Below, in pieces: positions 4,966 to 19,618 of a stretch of 64,000 nt of DNA. The position numbers were made by a program, and so were the translations under genes. Origin of the DNA: a virus; the IMG/VR virus record IMGVR_UViG_3300010885_029461, positions 1-64,000 of that record; one strand, given 5' to 3'. Under the pieces are notes generated by a model. It was given only the letters and a program-made list of their open reading frames with translations. It made no database searches and had not been told where the DNA came from. Position 1 is the stretch's first letter. Each line of letters begins with the position of its first letter.

Positions 4966-5152
4966 ATTAATCAACTTAATAAAAAAGTGGGCTAAACATA
5001 TTAGCGATGTTGCTGCTTTACGAGGACGGGACGGCATATATACTGATTCATCACATACTTGTCATGGTTGTGGGAACGGTCCCGTCTTATTTCTACAAGA
5101 TGGTTTATGTGATGAATGCCATAGAGCATATAACCAAATATTAAACTCATAA
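4955..5152 (+). CDS. Small zinc-finger-like protein
   Basis: A 65-residue protein with two CxxC pairs (Cys36/Cys39 and Cys52/Cys55) spaced like a zinc ribbon. It overlaps the GT34-like gene by 11 bases, and its TAA overlaps the next ATG. The function is unknown; a small metal-binding nucleic-acid or protein adaptor is possible. Confidence 0.55.
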   Translation: MNGELINLIKKWAKHISDVAALRGRDGIYTDSSHTCHGCGNGPVLFLQDGLCDECHRAYNQILNS

Positions 5153-5298
5153 TGAATAAAATACCTTTATATTACGACGATATCTGTTTAATTCCTGATA
5201 ATTTCTCCGAGTTAGAAACAAGGGATAATGCAGATACTTCCACCAATTTCTTAGGATTTAATGCAAGAAATCCAGTTATACCAGCTAATATATTATAA
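5152..5298 (+). pseudogene. N-terminal fragment of a GMP reductase/IMP dehydrogenase-family gene
   Basis: The 48-residue frame (YYDDICLIPDNFSEL then NPVIPANIL) matches the N terminus of the GMP reductase/IMPDH family and aligns with the start of the intact gene that follows. It stops immediately after the conserved P-x-x-P-A-N strand, where the family normally continues. Together with the C-terminal fragments at 7173 and 9146 it appears to be the remnant of a second GMP reductase gene broken up by insertions. Whether the peptide is made is unknown. Confidence 0.7.
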
Positions 5299-5300
5299 CA

Positions 5301-6269
5301 ATGAGCAACAAAATAACACAAAATTTAAATTATAGTAATATTTTACTTAAACATGGTAAATGTCGAGTGGATTCGCGTTCTCAATGTGATATATCTACTA
5401 CTATAGGAAATAAAAAAATTAATTCTCCGGTGTTTCCTAGTAACATGCCCGCAATTATTAATGCTGATATTTGTAAAACTTTCGATGAATCTGGATGGTT
5501 CTATATTTATCCTCGACTAGGAGGAAACAGTAACATCATCAATTTTCTAATAAGAGCAAAGGAAGAGAACTGGAATATTATATCTATTTCTATAGGAATT
5601 AAAGATGAGGATAGAACATTAATTAATTGGATTGCAGATAATTATACTCGGAAAGACCTCTTTATTACCATTGATGTTGCATTATCATATCAAGATAGAG
5701 TTGAAGAAATGATTAAATATGTTAAATCCGTATTACCTGATGTATATTTAATTGTTGGAAATGGCGACAGTCCTGAATGGATAGAATGGCTAGAAGATTT
5801 AGGTGTAGATGCAGCAAAGGTGAATATAGGAGTTTCGAGCAGTTGTCGAACCAGACAATTTACTGGATTTGGATCAACATCTGTTGGTGATTTATATGCA
5901 ATGTCATTGGTAGCAAATAAAATCAAAATTATCTCCGATGGAGGAATTACTAAATGTGAAACAGGTGAACCTGCAATTGGAGATATTGCGAAAGCTATTA
6001 GATTTGGGGCAGATTATATTTGTAGTGGGTTTGTATTTTCCCAATGTATAGATTCCCCTGCGATTAGAGAAGGATACTTCGGAAATTCCACCGCTAAGGC
6101 AAAGGGGCATAATTCTCATATTGAAGGTACGGTCATTAAAACATATACTAATGGAAATACTATTAAAGAACAGATAAAATTAATTGAAGATTCTTTAAAA
6201 TCGTCTGTTAGTTACAGTGGCGGGAAATCACTTAATAGTTTAACAACTTGCGATTATATTATAGTTTGA
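5301..6269 (+). CDS. GMP reductase-like protein (IMPDH/GMPR family)
   Basis: A 322-residue TIM-barrel enzyme of about the length of bacterial GuaC. Visible features are the N-terminal P-V-x-P-S-N-M strand, the catalytic loop GVSSSCRTR with Cys182 as the expected nucleophile, then ISDGG and GDIAKA-x-RFGAD (phosphate binding), and a C-terminal SYSGGKSL. In the family, GMPR converts GMP to IMP with NADPH; IMPDH runs IMP to XMP. No CBS domain is present, favouring GMPR. It may rebalance guanine nucleotides, perhaps feeding GDP-sugar supply in the surrounding island. The 3' end overlaps a homing endonuclease gene on the other strand by 11 bases. Confidence 0.75.
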   Translation: MSNKITQNLNYSNILLKHGKCRVDSRSQCDISTTIGNKKINSPVFPSNMPAIINADICKTFDESGWFYIYPRLGGNSNIINFLIRAKEENWNIISISIGIKDEDRTLINWIADNYTRKDLFITIDVALSYQDRVEEMIKYVKSVLPDVYLIVGNGDSPEWIEWLEDLGVDAAKVNIGVSSSCRTRQFTGFGSTSVGDLYAMSLVANKIKIISDGGITKCETGEPAIGDIAKAIRFGADYICSGFVFSQCIDSPAIREGYFGNSTAKAKGHNSHIEGTVIKTYTNGNTIKEQIKLIEDSLKSSVSYSGGKSLNSLTTCDYIIV

Positions 6270-7107
6270 TATTTAAATATTGAATAAAATTCATAGATAC
6301 TGTATATTTCCTAGATAATCCTAATGATTTTTCTTTATAAATATAATTGATAAAATTTTCAATATTATTTTTTCCAGTTATTAATAGTCGTGAATATGAG
6401 TTTTTATTTTTATTACCTTTAACAACTCGACTTGTTATATTATTTTTTGATAGATGCGATATAAATGACCAATCTTGTTCATAGGTCGAGGTTATAGCCA
6501 CGGAATATTGCCAAGTTTTATAATTGGTGGTGATGTTACCGTCGCCGTCAAAATATCCTCGCCACCAATAATGTTGTAATTCTGTAGGTATATGAGTTAG
6601 AACATTATTCGCAGATACTTGACTTTTATCGAAAAAATCCAAAGATAATAATAGGTTATATAATTGACGATCATGACACGATATAGTTATAACTTCATTT
6701 TTATGACATTTATATTTAACCTCTTGTATTTTCCAATTTCCAGTTTTATTAAAAATATTTATCAGTTCTAATGCGTCTGATTTTTTTAAGGTTATGGTAA
6801 TTCTTGTAGAATTTTTGGTATTTCGTATAGAACCGTCTGCCCACAATAAACCTAAAATATATGCTGCTTCCGCAGTTTGAACATTTATAAACATTTCTCT
6901 ATGTATTTTATATTTTTTTGACATATCCTGTTTATTTAAAATATGTTTTAATTTATCAGATTTAGTCATTTTGATATTTTTATTTCTACATCTTGACCAA
7001 ATAGCATCAGTTGTTCGATTTAAATATGTTGCACAAAAGCTTGCTCCCATATTAGAATAGTGTGTGGTTAAAAAGTTATCATCCATCAGTGTCCATTGTT
7101 TACCCAT
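6259..7107 (-). CDS. LAGLIDADG homing endonuclease
   Basis: A 282-residue protein with two LAGLIDADG-type motifs, AAYILGLLWADGSI and HYWWRGYFDGDGNI, so it should act as a monomer with two half-sites. The N-terminal region (TLMDDNFLTTHY ... AIWSRCR) resembles a SANT/HTH DNA-binding segment often joined to phage homing nucleases. It is the only minus-strand gene in the island and lies between the intact GMP reductase and GMP reductase fragments, suggesting the nuclease targets or hitchhikes with that gene. A CTAAATA late-type box ends 5 bases before its ATG. It is free-standing: I saw no intron or intein boundaries. Confidence 0.85.
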   Translation of the reverse strand: MGKQWTLMDDNFLTTHYSNMGASFCATYLNRTTDAIWSRCRNKNIKMTKSDKLKHILNKQDMSKKYKIHREMFINVQTAEAAYILGLLWADGSIRNTKNSTRITITLKKSDALELINIFNKTGNWKIQEVKYKCHKNEVITISCHDRQLYNLLLSLDFFDKSQVSANNVLTHIPTELQHYWWRGYFDGDGNITTNYKTWQYSVAITSTYEQDWSFISHLSKNNITSRVVKGNKNKNSYSRLLITGKNNIENFINYIYKEKSLGLSRKYTVSMNFIQYLNIKL

Positions 7108-8254: not shown

Positions 8255-9149
8255 GATCAAATTCGTTGATTTCTGGCCTAATTTGGTCGAGACAGATAAC
8301 TATTTTTATCATTTATTGTCACAAGAATATAATGTGTTAATTGATGCTCAAGAACCTGACATTTTATTTTATTCAGTTGACTATGCCAACAAACAAGAGC
8401 ATAGAAATTATGATAGAGGGAATATCAAGAAGGTATTCTATACTGGAGAAAACATGCATCCTGATTGGAACAAGAGTCATTTCGCATTCACCTTTGATCA
8501 TAATGATCATGACGGGCGGAATTACAGATTACCTCTTTGGGCATTACATATAAACTGGTTCAATGTGCCACATAATGATGATAGGGATCAATCGTATCTA
8601 CATGATCCTGAGTTATTACTTAATAAGAACTTCGATGAACGTATTTTTGATACTAAACCGGGATTTTGCGCATTTATAGCAGGACAACCTAAAGGGAAAC
8701 GGATGGATTTCGTGCCTAAGTTGCATGTAAGAAAACATATTCATTGTGCAGGACGTGTTTATAACAATACCAATGGCGTTATTTCTGGTAGAGGGGATCA
8801 GAAGGAGAAGATTGAGTTTCTTAAACAGTTCAGATTTAATGTTGCATTTGAAAATGAAGAAGCATATGGATATACTACAGAAAAAATCATACATTCGATG
8901 TTTGCTAACTGTATTCCGATCTATTGGGGCAATCCTTATGTGGGTCATGATTTTAATTTTAATTCATTTTTTAATTACGAGTCATACCCTATTGAAGAAA
9001 TATTATTAGATGATATTATTCGACTAGATTCTGATAGAAACAAGTACCTAGAGAAGTTAAATACTCCATGGTTCAATAACAACGAGTTTCCTTATAAAGT
9101 TCGTCCTGAGAATGTATTGAAATTTTTCAAAAACACAATTTTAAAATGA
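8229..9149 (+). CDS. Alpha-1,3-fucosyltransferase family protein (GT10)
   Basis: A 306-residue GT-B enzyme. The GT10 donor-binding signature is clear: FENE at residues 207-210, YGYTTEKI at 213-220, then IPIYWG at 229-234. These residues bind GDP-fucose in bacterial GT10 enzymes. Adjacent to GDP-L-fucose synthase, so donor synthesis and use are encoded together. The acceptor is not evident; host lipopolysaccharide, virion protein or modified DNA are all conceivable. ATG at 8229 overlaps fcl. Confidence 0.9.
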
Positions 9150-9526
9150 AGTTACCCCGAATAGATATATTTAAAAAGTATGGAGAAGGACATTTGCCTC
9201 GTCCACAACCTTCTGACATGGGCGATATTGCGAAAGCTATGGTGTTTGGCGCTAAGATGGTGATGTGTGGCGGTCTATTCGCTCCATGTATCAACAGTGC
9301 GGCTAAGATCAACAATGAGGGCAAGAAAGAGTATTTCGGTTCTGCTTCATTCCATTGTAAGAAGCATGATAAACATGTTGAAGGATTTATGGTTGGTCTG
9401 GAATCTGATAAAACTATTCTAGAAAAGATGAATGAGATTAATCAAGCTCTTGCAAGTTCTATTTCTTATGCTGGTGGTAAGAAATTAGCGGATTTGAAAG
9501 GCACAGATTATTTGATAATTATATAG
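9146..9526 (+). pseudogene. C-terminal fragment of GMP reductase (copy 2)
   Basis: A 126-residue frame covering the last third of a GMP reductase: GDIAKAMVFGAKMVMCGG (phosphate-binding region), KEYFGSAS, KHVEGFMVGL and SSISYAGGKKL. The N-terminal barrel and catalytic cysteine loop are absent. The first 20 or so residues look unrelated or degenerate. The ATG overlaps the fucosyltransferase stop (ATGA), so it might still be translated. It ends in TAG, immediately followed by the next ATG. Confidence 0.75.
9371..9526 (+). repeat. Direct repeat, right copy (GMP reductase 3' end)
   Basis: Right-hand partner of 7182-7337, in the same orientation. Recombination between the two copies would delete the fcl and GT10 genes and one fragment. 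Confidence 0.75.
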
Positions 9527-15131: not shown

Positions 15132-16079
15132 ATGATAATATCTTGTTGTCCATTAAGAATTTCCTTGGTTGGAGGAGGGTCAGACCATCCTTATTTTATA
15201 GAGAAATATAAAAGAGGTTCGGTTATATCATTTACATCTAACTTAAAGGTATATGTTACGCTACATAAAGATATCGCGGGCATTAACTATACTGACAAAA
15301 AATTTATAATAAATTATTCCCAAAGAGAAGAAGTCGAGAACATCAATGATATACGTAATGATATAGTTAGAAAAGTACTTCAATATTTCGATATTGATTA
15401 TACATTAACCATAAGTCTAACATCTGATATTTCATCTAGTGGGTCAGGTCTAGCATCATCTAGTGCGTATATTTTAGCCCTAATAAGTGCATTAAATTTC
15501 CAAAATAATTGGAATTTATCAGAATTCGAAGTATGTAAAATCGGTTTCAATATAGAAAAATCGATAAATCCTCTAGTAGGTCAACAGGATTTATTTGGGT
15601 CACTGGAGGGAGGATTGAAAAGGATAGATTTTAGTTTAGATTCCGACCCGTCAATAACCATTCTGCCTCCGATATTTGATAACGAAAATATATATCTAAT
15701 ACATACAGGGATATGTAGAAATTCTACAAATATACTACATAATATTAATATAGATAATTCATTTGCATTATTGGAAGAAGTGTCAAATTTTGAAAAATAT
15801 ATAAAATCTGATAACATAAATAAAATATATAGTACAATTAATGATGCGTGGAAAATCAAAAAAACTACTTCGGATTTGATATGTGGCAACGAATCGATTA
15901 AAGTCCTAGATAATATACTATCTTTGAATCCTAACATTTTTGCCCATAAATTATGTGGAGCAGGTAATGGGGGATATTTTCTGGTATTTGGTGATATATC
16001 CTCCATTCAACAACAAATAACAAATACCATTATACCTATATCAATAACAAACACAGGTATCAGCGTTAAAAAAATATGA
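15132..16079 (+). CDS. GHMP kinase, D-glycero-D-manno-heptose 7-phosphate kinase-like
   Basis: A 315-residue GHMP-superfamily kinase. The N terminus has PLRISLVGGGSD, close to HddA-type kinases; the ATP loop SSSGSGLASSSAY lies at residues 101-113; and a C-terminal KLCGAGNGGYFL is the third GHMP motif. HddA phosphorylates heptose 7-phosphate at C1 in the GDP-heptose pathway. The next gene encodes a SIS isomerase that would supply its substrate, which supports this assignment over galactokinase-type roles. Confidence 0.75.
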   Translation: MIISCCPLRISLVGGGSDHPYFIEKYKRGSVISFTSNLKVYVTLHKDIAGINYTDKKFIINYSQREEVENINDIRNDIVRKVLQYFDIDYTLTISLTSDISSSGSGLASSSAYILALISALNFQNNWNLSEFEVCKIGFNIEKSINPLVGQQDLFGSLEGGLKRIDFSLDSDPSITILPPIFDNENIYLIHTGICRNSTNILHNINIDNSFALLEEVSNFEKYIKSDNINKIYSTINDAWKIKKTTSDLICGNESIKVLDNILSLNPNIFAHKLCGAGNGGYFLVFGDISSIQQQITNTIIPISITNTGISVKKI

Positions 16080-16576
16080 TCATAAATAACTTAATATCAC
16101 ATATAAATCGTTTAGATTCTTCTAAGATAGAATCGTTAAATAAATATATATCCGCTCATAAAAACATAATAATTTTAGGAAATGGGGGTAGTTCGTCCAT
16201 TGCTTCTCATATAGCACAGGATTACACTAAAGTATTAAAAAAAAGATGTTTAACTTTTTCCGATTCTTCGCGATTAACGTGTTATATAAATGATTATGGA
16301 CAGGAGTATGCATATTCTAAATTTTTAGAAGAGTTTTCGTACCCGACTACTTTAGTAATATTGATATCATCATCAGGTAATTCCAAAAATATAATAAATT
16401 GTGCAGAATTATGTGTGACAAAACAAATACCTTATATATTATTAACCGGATTTGATATGAATAATTTGCTTCGATCTAATTTTTCAGATAATGCATGCTT
16501 AGAATTCTGGATAGACTCAGACTGCTATGGCACTGTAGAAACACTGCATCAAATTATTTTACACTCGGTATGTTGA
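16076..16576 (+). CDS. SIS-domain sugar isomerase, phosphoheptose isomerase-like
   Basis: A 166-residue SIS protein: ILGNGGSSSIASHIAQD and LISSSGNSKNI are the two phosphosugar-binding loops. GmhA proteins (about 190 residues) convert sedoheptulose 7-phosphate into D-glycero-D-manno-heptose 7-phosphate. This copy is slightly short. It overlaps the GHMP kinase gene by 4 bases, making a GmhA/HddA pair. Confidence 0.75.
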   Translation: MIINNLISHINRLDSSKIESLNKYISAHKNIIILGNGGSSSIASHIAQDYTKVLKKRCLTFSDSSRLTCYINDYGQEYAYSKFLEEFSYPTTLVILISSSGNSKNIINCAELCVTKQIPYILLTGFDMNNLLRSNFSDNACLEFWIDSDCYGTVETLHQIILHSVC

Positions 16577-16583
16577 TATATAC

Positions 16584-16611
16584 TTGCAACATAAAGATCA
16601 CACACTAAATA
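16584..16611 (+). promoter_or_regulatory. Promoter TTGCAA-16-TAAATA
   Basis: The CTAAATA box ends 7 bases before the ATG at 16619; a TTGCAA lies 16 bases upstream of TAAATA. Confidence 0.4.
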
Positions 16612-16618
16612 TTTTTAC

Positions 16619-17248
16619 ATGGAAATATTAGAACAAAAACACGGTAAATCGATGGACGAAGGGCATCTAGGAGGTTGGGCATTAGAAGGAGACGGAGGAA
16701 CATATTATCCTGTAATGTGGGAACATTTAATTAATATATTTAATATTAAAAGTGTGTTGGATATAGGATGTGGAAGAGGATTTTCTACTAGATTCTTTAA
16801 AAGTCTAGGATGTAAAATTACTGGGATTGATGGCAGTATAAATGCAAAAAAACTAACTTTATTGGATTCAGATGAATTTTATCTCCATGATTATAGTAAA
16901 GGAGAAACAGATATATCCGAATCATATGATTTATGCTGGACATGTGAATTTGTAGAACATGTTGATGCACAGTATATATCGAATTTTGTAAATGACTTTA
17001 AGAAATGTAAATATGTTGCTATGACTTTTGCAGCTATAGGACAAGGAGGACATCATCATGTGAATGAAAACACTCAAGAATATTGGGTTGACATTCTCGA
17101 AAAAGCTGGATTCTCTTTTTCAGAACAATATACTAAACTATTTCGAGCACTAGCACTTGTGGATAAGAAAGATAGAGAAAACACCGCCAATTGCCCTTTC
17201 TTTATATCTCATTTCGTAGAAAGAGGTCTTTTTTTTGAACGTAAATGA
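16619..17248 (+). CDS. Class I SAM methyltransferase
   Basis: A 209-residue protein with VLDIGCGRGFSTRFF (motif I), ITGIDGS (motif II) and YDLCWTCEFVEHV (motif IV), typical of Methyltransf_11/23-type small-molecule methylases. Likely target is a sugar or a glycan intermediate. It overlaps the next gene by 4 bases. Confidence 0.8.
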   Translation: MEILEQKHGKSMDEGHLGGWALEGDGGTYYPVMWEHLINIFNIKSVLDIGCGRGFSTRFFKSLGCKITGIDGSINAKKLTLLDSDEFYLHDYSKGETDISESYDLCWTCEFVEHVDAQYISNFVNDFKKCKYVAMTFAAIGQGGHHHVNENTQEYWVDILEKAGFSFSEQYTKLFRALALVDKKDRENTANCPFFISHFVERGLFFERK

Positions 17249-17981
17249 ATATTGCTATATGTTTCAGTGGAGAATTACGTAGTTTAGATAAAACATATAA
17301 AAAATTATTTAAGCTATTATTATCGGATAAAACACATATATATGATTTATTTTATTTTGGTTGGACAGATGATAATGATATTGATAAAATTAAATATTTT
17401 GACAGTACTGATTCACCCTTTATATATAAATTAGAAGATCGTATCACATTTAACATCGGAGATTTTTTTCCCAAACATTCAAATATTATACAATATCAGA
17501 ACATAATACGGCAATTATATTGTGTCAAAAGAGTAAATGATATGAAAATAGAAGCAGAGGTTGCAAAAAAAAAAAATATGATTTAGTAATACGTGTGCGC
17601 CCAGATTCATATCCTTTGAATGATCATGTTTTCCAATATGACTTATTTGACAAATCCAAAATACATGTCCTAAATCATGATAATTGGCACGGTTTATGTG
17701 ATAGGCTATATCTAGGTAACTCGTTAAATATGAATACAGTGTCGAATCGAATAGAAAATCTATTATTATATGATTCTTTGGGTGGAATTAATCAATATGA
17801 AGGATTCTTGTTATTTATTATTTATTATTATGGTATAGAGGTAGAACATATTGACTATTTAGAAACCTGTCTACTTCGAACCAACGGGGAACGAGTTGGA
17901 GAGTTGATACATATTGCAGATGGAACGATTACTCGTACATTAAATGGTATATGGCATAATAACTTGCAAGCATATATCTAA
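17245..17981 (+). pseudogene. Glycosyltransferase-like gene broken at a 12-A run
   Basis: Two frames belong to one product. The first (17245-17586, 113 residues) begins with NIAICFSGELRS and ends soon after an A12 run at 17565-17576. The second continues in the -1 frame through the run and reads YDLVIRVRPDSYPLND and on to the TAA at 17981. The YD-x-V-I-R-x-RPD motif is what capsular-type glycosyltransferases have at this point. A -1 ribosomal shift on the A run, one extra A by polymerase slippage, or a sequencing error would restore about 245 residues. Confidence 0.65.
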
Positions 17982-17997
17982 TGTGCTAATATATCAT

Positions 17998-18723
17998 ATG
18001 ATATATGCAATAGACCTAGATTCAACCTTGTGCTCTTCAACAAAATCAAAAACATACGAGGACTGTCAGCCTATTATCAACCGAATACAGTATATTAATG
18101 AATTACATGAACAAGGAAACTATATTAAAATATATACTGCCCGAGGAATGACTCGGCACAATGGGGATGTAGCAAAAGCATACGATGATTTATATATATT
18201 AACAAAAACTCAACTTAAAAAATGGAATATCCGATACGATATATTGATCATGGGTAAACCGTCATATGATGTTATCATAGATGATAAAGCTATAAACGAC
18301 AATGACTTCTTTAAAAGGCAAATCATAAAGGGTATAATCGCTGGATCATTTGATATTCTTCATCCCGGTTACATCAAAATGTTCAATTACGCACGAAAAC
18401 ACTGTGGATATCTTATAGTTGCGCTTCATATTGATCCATCGGAAGAACGACCCACCAAACATACTCCTATCTTATCTGTGGAAGATAGGTTTAATGCACT
18501 CATGTCTCTCAAATCAATAGATGAGGTGTACACCTATTCGAACGAAAATGATCTATATGAATTGCTTGTGCAAATAGATGCCGATGTGAGATTTGTAGGC
18601 GATGATTACATAGATAAAGATTTCACTGGTAAAAATCTAACAAAAGATATCATCTATATTGATAGATCACATGGATGGAGTACGACCAAATTTAAACAAT
18701 TAATTTATGATTCAAAAAACTAA
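17998..18723 (+). CDS. HAD phosphatase fused to a cytidylyltransferase-like nucleotidyltransferase
   Basis: A 241-residue two-domain protein. Residues 1-105 form a HAD phosphatase like the capsule-linked EcbF/BcbF group: DLDST at 6-10, YTARGM at 46-51, IDDKA at 94-98. Residues 112-241 form a nucleotidyltransferase: AGSFDILHPGY at 115-125 and GWSTTKFK at 226-233, as in HldE C-terminal and glycerol-3-phosphate cytidylyltransferase families. With the SIS isomerase and GHMP kinase, the two activities would complete synthesis of an NDP-heptose. The ATG at 17998 was chosen because the upstream ATG at 17944 overlaps the previous gene. Confidence 0.8.
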   Translation: MIYAIDLDSTLCSSTKSKTYEDCQPIINRIQYINELHEQGNYIKIYTARGMTRHNGDVAKAYDDLYILTKTQLKKWNIRYDILIMGKPSYDVIIDDKAINDNDFFKRQIIKGIIAGSFDILHPGYIKMFNYARKHCGYLIVALHIDPSEERPTKHTPILSVEDRFNALMSLKSIDEVYTYSNENDLYELLVQIDADVRFVGDDYIDKDFTGKNLTKDIIYIDRSHGWSTTKFKQLIYDSKN

Positions 18724-19618
18724 AGTAATAGTAACGGGAGGGTGCGGGTTCATTGGTTCGCATTTAGTCGATAGATTAATCGATTTGTCGTATGATGTGC
18801 ATGTCATCGATGATGAATCTGCTGAATCGAATGAAGTATTTTATCATAACTCTAAGGCGCATTATTATAAGATAGATATTGATGATCTATCCGTGCATAA
18901 TAGTTACCATAATCATATCTTCGCCAATGTTAATTTCATATTCCATATGGCAGCAGAATCGCGTATCGTACCCGCTATCAAAGACCCCGTTAAAGCCGCT
19001 ACGACTAATGTAATCGGGACAGTCAAAGTATTAGAACTGGCTCGAAAACATAAAATACAACGAGTGATGTATTCGTCAACCTCATCTGTATATGGGTTAA
19101 AATGTACTCTTCCTACAGACGAATTGACACAAATTGACTGTCTCAATCCGTACTCTTCGACAAAGTTCTGCGGGGAAGAAATGGTTAAACTTTATAGTAA
19201 AATGTACGGGTTAGATACATGTATCTTTAGGTATTTCAATGTATATGGGGAACGATCCCCAACCAAAGGGCAGTATGCGCCTGTTATCGGGTTATTTCTG
19301 AAACAACGAGACGAGAATAAACCGTTAGTTATATTCGGAAATGGAGAAAAACGAAGAGATTTTGTTCATGTCCATGATGTAGTAGATGCTAATCTACTAG
19401 CTATGCAGCACCCAACCCCCATCTACGGAGAGATTTTCAATGTAGGGTCGGGTGTGAATTATTCTATTAATGAAATTGCATCATTTGTTAGTGATGATAT
19501 CGAGTATAAAGATGCACGGGAAGGCGAAGCCGAAAATACGCTGGCAGATATTCATAAAATTCTTAATATATTAGGATTTGTTCCGAGATATGAGGTAAAA
19601 AAATGGATTACCTTATAA
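18707..19618 (+). CDS. NAD-dependent sugar epimerase (UDP-glucose 4-epimerase-like SDR)
   Basis: A 303-residue extended SDR: GGCGFIG at residues 11-17, YSSTSSVYG at 122-130, Y149xxxK153 in NPYSSTKFCGEE. The pattern is typical of UDP-hexose 4-epimerases and related enzymes; substrate not determinable. It overlaps the previous gene by 17 bases and closes the island. Confidence 0.8.
   Translation: MIQKTKVIVTGGCGFIGSHLVDRLIDLSYDVHVIDDESAESNEVFYHNSKAHYYKIDIDDLSVHNSYHNHIFANVNFIFHMAAESRIVPAIKDPVKAATTNVIGTVKVLELARKHKIQRVMYSSTSSVYGLKCTLPTDELTQIDCLNPYSSTKFCGEEMVKLYSKMYGLDTCIFRYFNVYGERSPTKGQYAPVIGLFLKQRDENKPLVIFGNGEKRRDFVHVHDVVDANLLAMQHPTPIYGEIFNVGSGVNYSINEIASFVSDDIEYKDAREGEAENTLADIHKILNILGFVPRYEVKKWITL

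Follow-up and report, generated by a model that had tools for sequence, protein, structure and literature searches.

Why is a phage gene in a glycan locus divided between two reading frames at a run of twelve adenines, and does the division reflect a sequencing error, a dead gene, a switch, or an allele that is still partly expressed? The question arises in a record of 66,990 bases for an uncultured virus; its bases 1–64,000, analysed here (hereafter the window), include genes for a phage DNA polymerase and for a large terminase (PHROG matches). A sequence-only reading had proposed that the run at 17565–17576 splits a glycosyltransferase gene, and the count bears this out: the tract is exactly 12 A long, a 113-codon ORF closes ten bases past it at a TAG (17584–17586), and the remainder of the gene lies in the -1 frame. 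The features concerned are the following.

15132–19618, plus strand: the glycan operon around the split gene (profile matches).
17245–17586, plus strand: ORF1, 113 aa, the N-terminal part of a putative GT-A-like glycosyltransferase of phrog_13607 (ORF call, profile match).
17541–17981, plus strand: ORF2, an open frame at -1 relative to ORF1, the putative C-terminal part with YDLVIRVRPD (frame translation, profile match).
17565–17576, plus strand: the A12 tract and frame junction (counted in the sequence; identical tract in a second contig, G001).

Judged from profiles and alignments, ORF1 and ORF2 are parts of one protein. The phrog_13607 profile matches ORF1 with its positions 1–49 (31.4 bits) and, collinearly, ORF2 with positions 138–193 (17.1 bits). 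The -1 join, predicted beforehand to give a continuous protein with YDLVIRVRPD, does so: the read-through protein scores 54.4 bits (3.4e-14) against phrog_13607, and a single tblastn piece to the Synechococcus phage (cyanophage) S-8S55 spans the junction, covering read-through residues 3–173. ORF2 alone gave no tblastn match. Across its 737 bases the gene shows no second lesion, and the part in ORF2 still has an open frame and the R, D and D that are invariant in the family. At the other end, the start codon of ORF1 shares an ATGA with the stop codon of the gene before it. Separate initiation of ORF2 with the motif intact was considered and rejected, as there is no ATG, GTG or TTG between the start of the ORF2 open frame and GTG 17595, which itself sits inside the motif; the C-terminal half would thus depend on a frame change.

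The family is annotated by Pfam and PHROG as 'unknown function'. All 40 members of our alignment (A3) match phrog_13607, and the score to Pfam DUF7796 rises from 18.1 bits for ORF2 to 25.7 bits for the read-through, under the 27-bit cutoff. A sequence search of PDB chains matched neither ORF2 alone nor the read-through; the A3 profile gave four matches, all with E above 0.5 and none a glycosyltransferase. A structure was modelled for a homolog (L010, about 30% identical) from the alignment of 40 relatives, with pLDDT 80.6 and pTM 0.85; its best structural match is BoGT6a (4ayl; Z 13.0, 188 residues, rmsd 3.4), and by Foldseek the E value is 4.1e-7 with modest TM-scores of 0.45–0.52. The matched structures, listed as blood-group-type glycosyltransferases and BoGT6a, are ones that we take to be GT-A and GT6 enzymes. 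The GT-A fold predicted for the homolog supports the label of glycosyltransferase originally attached to the gene, with GT6 as the nearest family. In the L010 model the tract maps to the loop between helix 102–122 and strand 128–132, just before the family's invariant YDxVIRxRxD motif. The invariant residues past the tract (R133, D135 and D173 in L010, from the family alignment) are all encoded in ORF2, so that, by comparison with this homolog, the ORF1 product alone should be inactive.

The neighbouring genes agree with the glycan locus that had been proposed, a sugar kinase, isomerase, nucleotidyltransferase and epimerase being present in the operon. The order is GHMP (HddA-like) kinase, GmhA-like isomerase, methyltransferase, split glycosyltransferase, HAD+nucleotidyltransferase fusion and NAD epimerase. 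Within 15132–18723 the HddA-like GHMP kinase, GmhA-like isomerase and fusion of HAD phosphatase with an HldE/RfaE-like nucleotidyltransferase resemble a nucleotide-heptose pathway; the identity of its sugar is uncertain, the best NCBIfam matches being far under curated cutoffs. The phage contig L085 has at 5090–6994 a kinase (49% identical), an isomerase and a nucleotidyltransferase in the same order, without a methyltransferase and glycosyltransferase in between, the latter two of its three genes being named by eye from ORFs. Elsewhere in the glycan region, an ORF on the minus strand at 6259–7107 may encode a homing endonuclease, reading like one in its LLWADGS segment. A short ORF at 9146–9526 resembles by eye the C-terminal third of the ORF at 5301–6269 (GDIAKA..FGA...G ... 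SYSGGK/SYAGGK), and is a possible partial duplicate of that GMP-reductase-like gene.

Relatives of the split gene were collected by an alignment-driven scan that returned 56 viral loci, one of which is the window's own contig (L009), and 3 genome loci; addition of three annotated cyanophage genes (three fetched of eight matches) gave 61 non-self relatives, 43 of which were left after a >90% identity filter. Every one of the 61 is a single intact ORF of 217–302 aa with its stop inside the locus. The scan patterns sit in the N-terminal half of the protein, so split relatives were not missed through being split. The YD..[VI][R/K].R segment was found by motif expression in 52 of the 61; seven of the nine misses show an in-frame variant of it in the alignment, and the other two (L030 and L049) had been dropped from the alignment as >90% identical to others. 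The linker of the read-through protein aligns gap-free with many members (e.g. L010, L012 and L014), the four lysines of the tract replacing a variable loop (NNFE in L010). With all 61 relatives intact, the ancestor was presumably intact as well and the split is, on this comparison, a derived, lineage-specific change; it distinguishes this gene from the unsplit phrog_13607 and DUF7796 proteins examined, of which the read-through is a member by sequence.

None of the 61 relatives has an A run of at least 7 at the junction. A directed scan for A8 or longer before the motif yielded nine stretches, comprising the self contig, L079, L080 and six that are not recognisable as family. L079 has A9 directly before the motif within an intact frame (a 237-aa ORF at L079 2185–2898), and L080 has A8 in the same place (L080 14–44) with the frame intact up to the contig end; together they show how such a tract can begin elsewhere in the family. 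A second family member adjoins the tract-bearing gene of L080. Searches of the phage collection in 'distant' and 'near' modes gave no DNA-level relatives. An intact syntenic ortholog was also sought via the neighbouring genes and was not found, there being no family member in 20 non-self loci with kinase and methyltransferase (L085, L086 and L088–L105; tblastn at 0.05, A3 profile at 0.01).

No other homopolymer in the window reaches the length of this tract, which is the only A/T run of at least 10 there; the next longest is A9. When the window was simulated 100 times by a first-order Markov model, 14 simulations contained a run of at least 12, and A12 by itself is not extraordinary for 64 kb at 33% GC; what counts is its place in the gene and its effect on the frame. 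A/T runs of at least 8 are under-represented, with 4 observed against 13.9 expected from the same type and number of simulations. The called ORFs of the window contain ten runs of three or more lysines, and only that of the A12 tract is without AAG. All nine others are broken by AAG, whereas the 72.5% use of AAA in the window predicts 3.1 uninterrupted runs (P about 0.02). These broken lysine runs and the scarcity of long A/T runs indicate that the phage genome appears to avoid pure A runs, and interruption by AAG is the pattern expected if slippage on pure A matters to the phage. Such avoidance is described for other genomes (PMC4363877).

The tract is present in a second contig, IMGVR_UViG_3300009163_003004 (G001; 23,547 bp), which corresponds to window positions 5038–28584 and differs from the window at three positions over its whole length: 17491, 17497 and 28563, of which 28563 is some 20 bases short of the end of G001. 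The first two form one feature.

17491–17497, plus strand: two C/A differences between the window and G001, both Gln/Lys, 74 and 68 bases upstream of the tract (contig comparison).

These changes lie six bases apart in ORF1 of the split gene, each exchanges Gln for Lys, and they may stem from a single mutational event, from relaxed constraint, or from poor reads close to the tract. The last bears on whether the true tract length is in frame and A12 a sequencing or assembly artefact, one of the causes put forward at the outset. Indel errors occur readily in long A tracts, the coverage of the two IMG/VR contigs is unstated, and C/A differences clustered 68–74 bases away could mean poor local reads; against this, G001 has the identical A12 with just 3 differences in 23,547 bp, although a systematic error could be shared if both contigs come from the same sample. 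Occurrence of A12 in two contigs makes random assembly error unlikely, and the allele is probably real; we regard an artefact of either kind as rather improbable.

The same two contigs bear on the proposal of a slippage switch, in which the tract would be a phase-variable contingency locus, DNA polymerase slippage producing a mixture of on and off genomes and thereby altering the phage's glycan product. In gene type and position the split gene does resemble bacterial phase-variable loci, and hypermutable polyG tracts are reportedly associated with phase variation in Campylobacter phages (Sorensen 2021). Those tracts too are reportedly homopolymers setting the frame in a phage gene, whereas here the tract is of A, shows no length variants in the contigs scanned and lies in a glycosyltransferase. 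PolyA tract variation in host LOS genes has been linked to phage resistance (PMC10877375). A pattern scan of viral contigs, with 3–33 bases allowed between the flanks, matched G001 (A12) only and gave no tract-length variants; a search with window 17998–18723 also returned G001 only. Finding A12 and no length variant in two of two contigs counts against the switch, although weakly, as both are consensus sequences in which minority tract lengths would be hidden, and two of them tell little about length variation. The scarcity of A runs at this site in the family counts against it too, L079 and L080 having come only from the directed search. A switch acting through length variants is thus unsupported, and we consider it unlikely. 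More elaborately, A12 could be maintained as bet-hedging, with RNA polymerase slippage giving a basal dose and DNA slippage switching the gene on and off to diversify the glycan of the cluster, which we think more doubtful still.

Ribosomal -1 shifting at the tract had been suggested as well, and as a programmed, dnaX-like event it would set the ratio of a short to a long product. Slippery heptamers A AAA AAA, of the X XXY YYZ form, lie in the ORF1 frame, and one 104-nt downstream stretch folds with z -2.4. A candidate stimulator is also present upstream.

17556–17560, plus strand: AGAGG, Shine-Dalgarno-like, a candidate frameshift stimulator 4 nt before the tract (from the sequence).

The fold score, however, depends on the length chosen, ranging from +1.5 to -2.5 over ten lengths; values of -2.4 or lower occur in 7% of 170 background stretches; and z is just -0.7 once 77 bases upstream, with the tract, are included. 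No Rfam match was obtained for 17000–18200. Moreover, none of the 61 relatives is split and the short product would be without the motif. Programmed frameshifting is therefore disfavoured, having neither a robust downstream structure nor a conserved split, and it was rejected as the leading reading on account of the former; we rate it as very unlikely.

Has the gene then simply been inactivated, such that an indel killed it, decay lies ahead, and whatever slippage yields is of no consequence? Both contigs have the broken frame, the ORF1 fragment is without the invariant R, D and D, and two of the three inter-contig differences alter amino acids of ORF1, a possible sign of relaxed constraint. 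Dead genes are usually shed by phages, and the retained operon overlap and the lack of a second lesion in 737 bases also speak against inactivation, although a lesion too young to have decayed would look the same, and ORF2 could be open merely because the mutation is young. On balance we think plain inactivation unlikely.

The reading that we favour, at a probability of about one half, is that A12 is a natural leaky frameshift allele that is partly rescued, being neither a finished pseudogene nor a dedicated recoding signal. It draws on the recurrence of A12 in two contigs with separate records and with differences at other positions, on the 61 intact relatives, on the broken lysine runs elsewhere in the window, on an ORF2 that is still open with its invariant residues, on the gene's place in a tight operon with the ATGA overlap, and on published precedents of slippage at A tracts. 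The lysine-rich loop before the RxRxD motif would have grown into an unbroken A tract in this phage lineage, and an indel in the hypermutable tract would have left 12 A, such that the DNA frame ends at the nearby TAG. We infer that bacterial RNA polymerase and ribosomes slip on the tract, a minority of messages or passages entering the -1 frame and giving full-length enzyme, with most of the product being the inactive 113-residue N-terminal fragment without the motif. In slippage-rescued genes the restored frame follows an A or T tract of roughly 9 or more without interruption; here A12 is uninterrupted and the -1 frame is open to 17981. A frameshift at an A tract in an otherwise intact gene is a known kind of event, and the instance here is new. 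The open-access literature searched yielded no report on the gene and none on a phage glycosyltransferase switched by an A tract, which shows little as subscription papers lay outside the search.

Among the precedents, in Citrobacter rodentium an A11 tract in tssM1, 28 nt before the stop, gives about 20% frameshifting by transcriptional slippage (PMC4256274). In both cases an early stop codon closely follows a long run of nothing but A, the protein continues in a neighbouring frame, and relatives have a single extended protein; they differ in that slippage in tssM1 was measured and both products are part of a working machine, whereas A12 lies in a putative phage glycosyltransferase. Insect endosymbionts have poly(A) frameshifts (Tamas 2008, as described in PMC5009743 and PMC5574713), and where their poly(A) runs are long, 12–50% of transcripts are corrected (PMC5009743). 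The likeness here is of an AT-rich genome and a poly(A) indel in a gene otherwise intact and possibly rescued, although theirs are reduced symbiont genomes, ours is a phage, and long A/T runs are scarcer in the window than expected. In Lactococcus, two 'pseudogenes' with short A or T runs show an estimated 18% and 6% passage from ribosome profiles (PMC10986495). To the contrary, a survey of Buchnera and E. coli reports no frame restored by transcription errors (PMC5574713).

If the switch reading were true, it would establish phase variation through an A tract in a glycan gene of a phage. If instead the slippage reading is true, a gene that annotation would list as broken retains some low expression, and catalogues of phage genes count too few working genes at A tracts.
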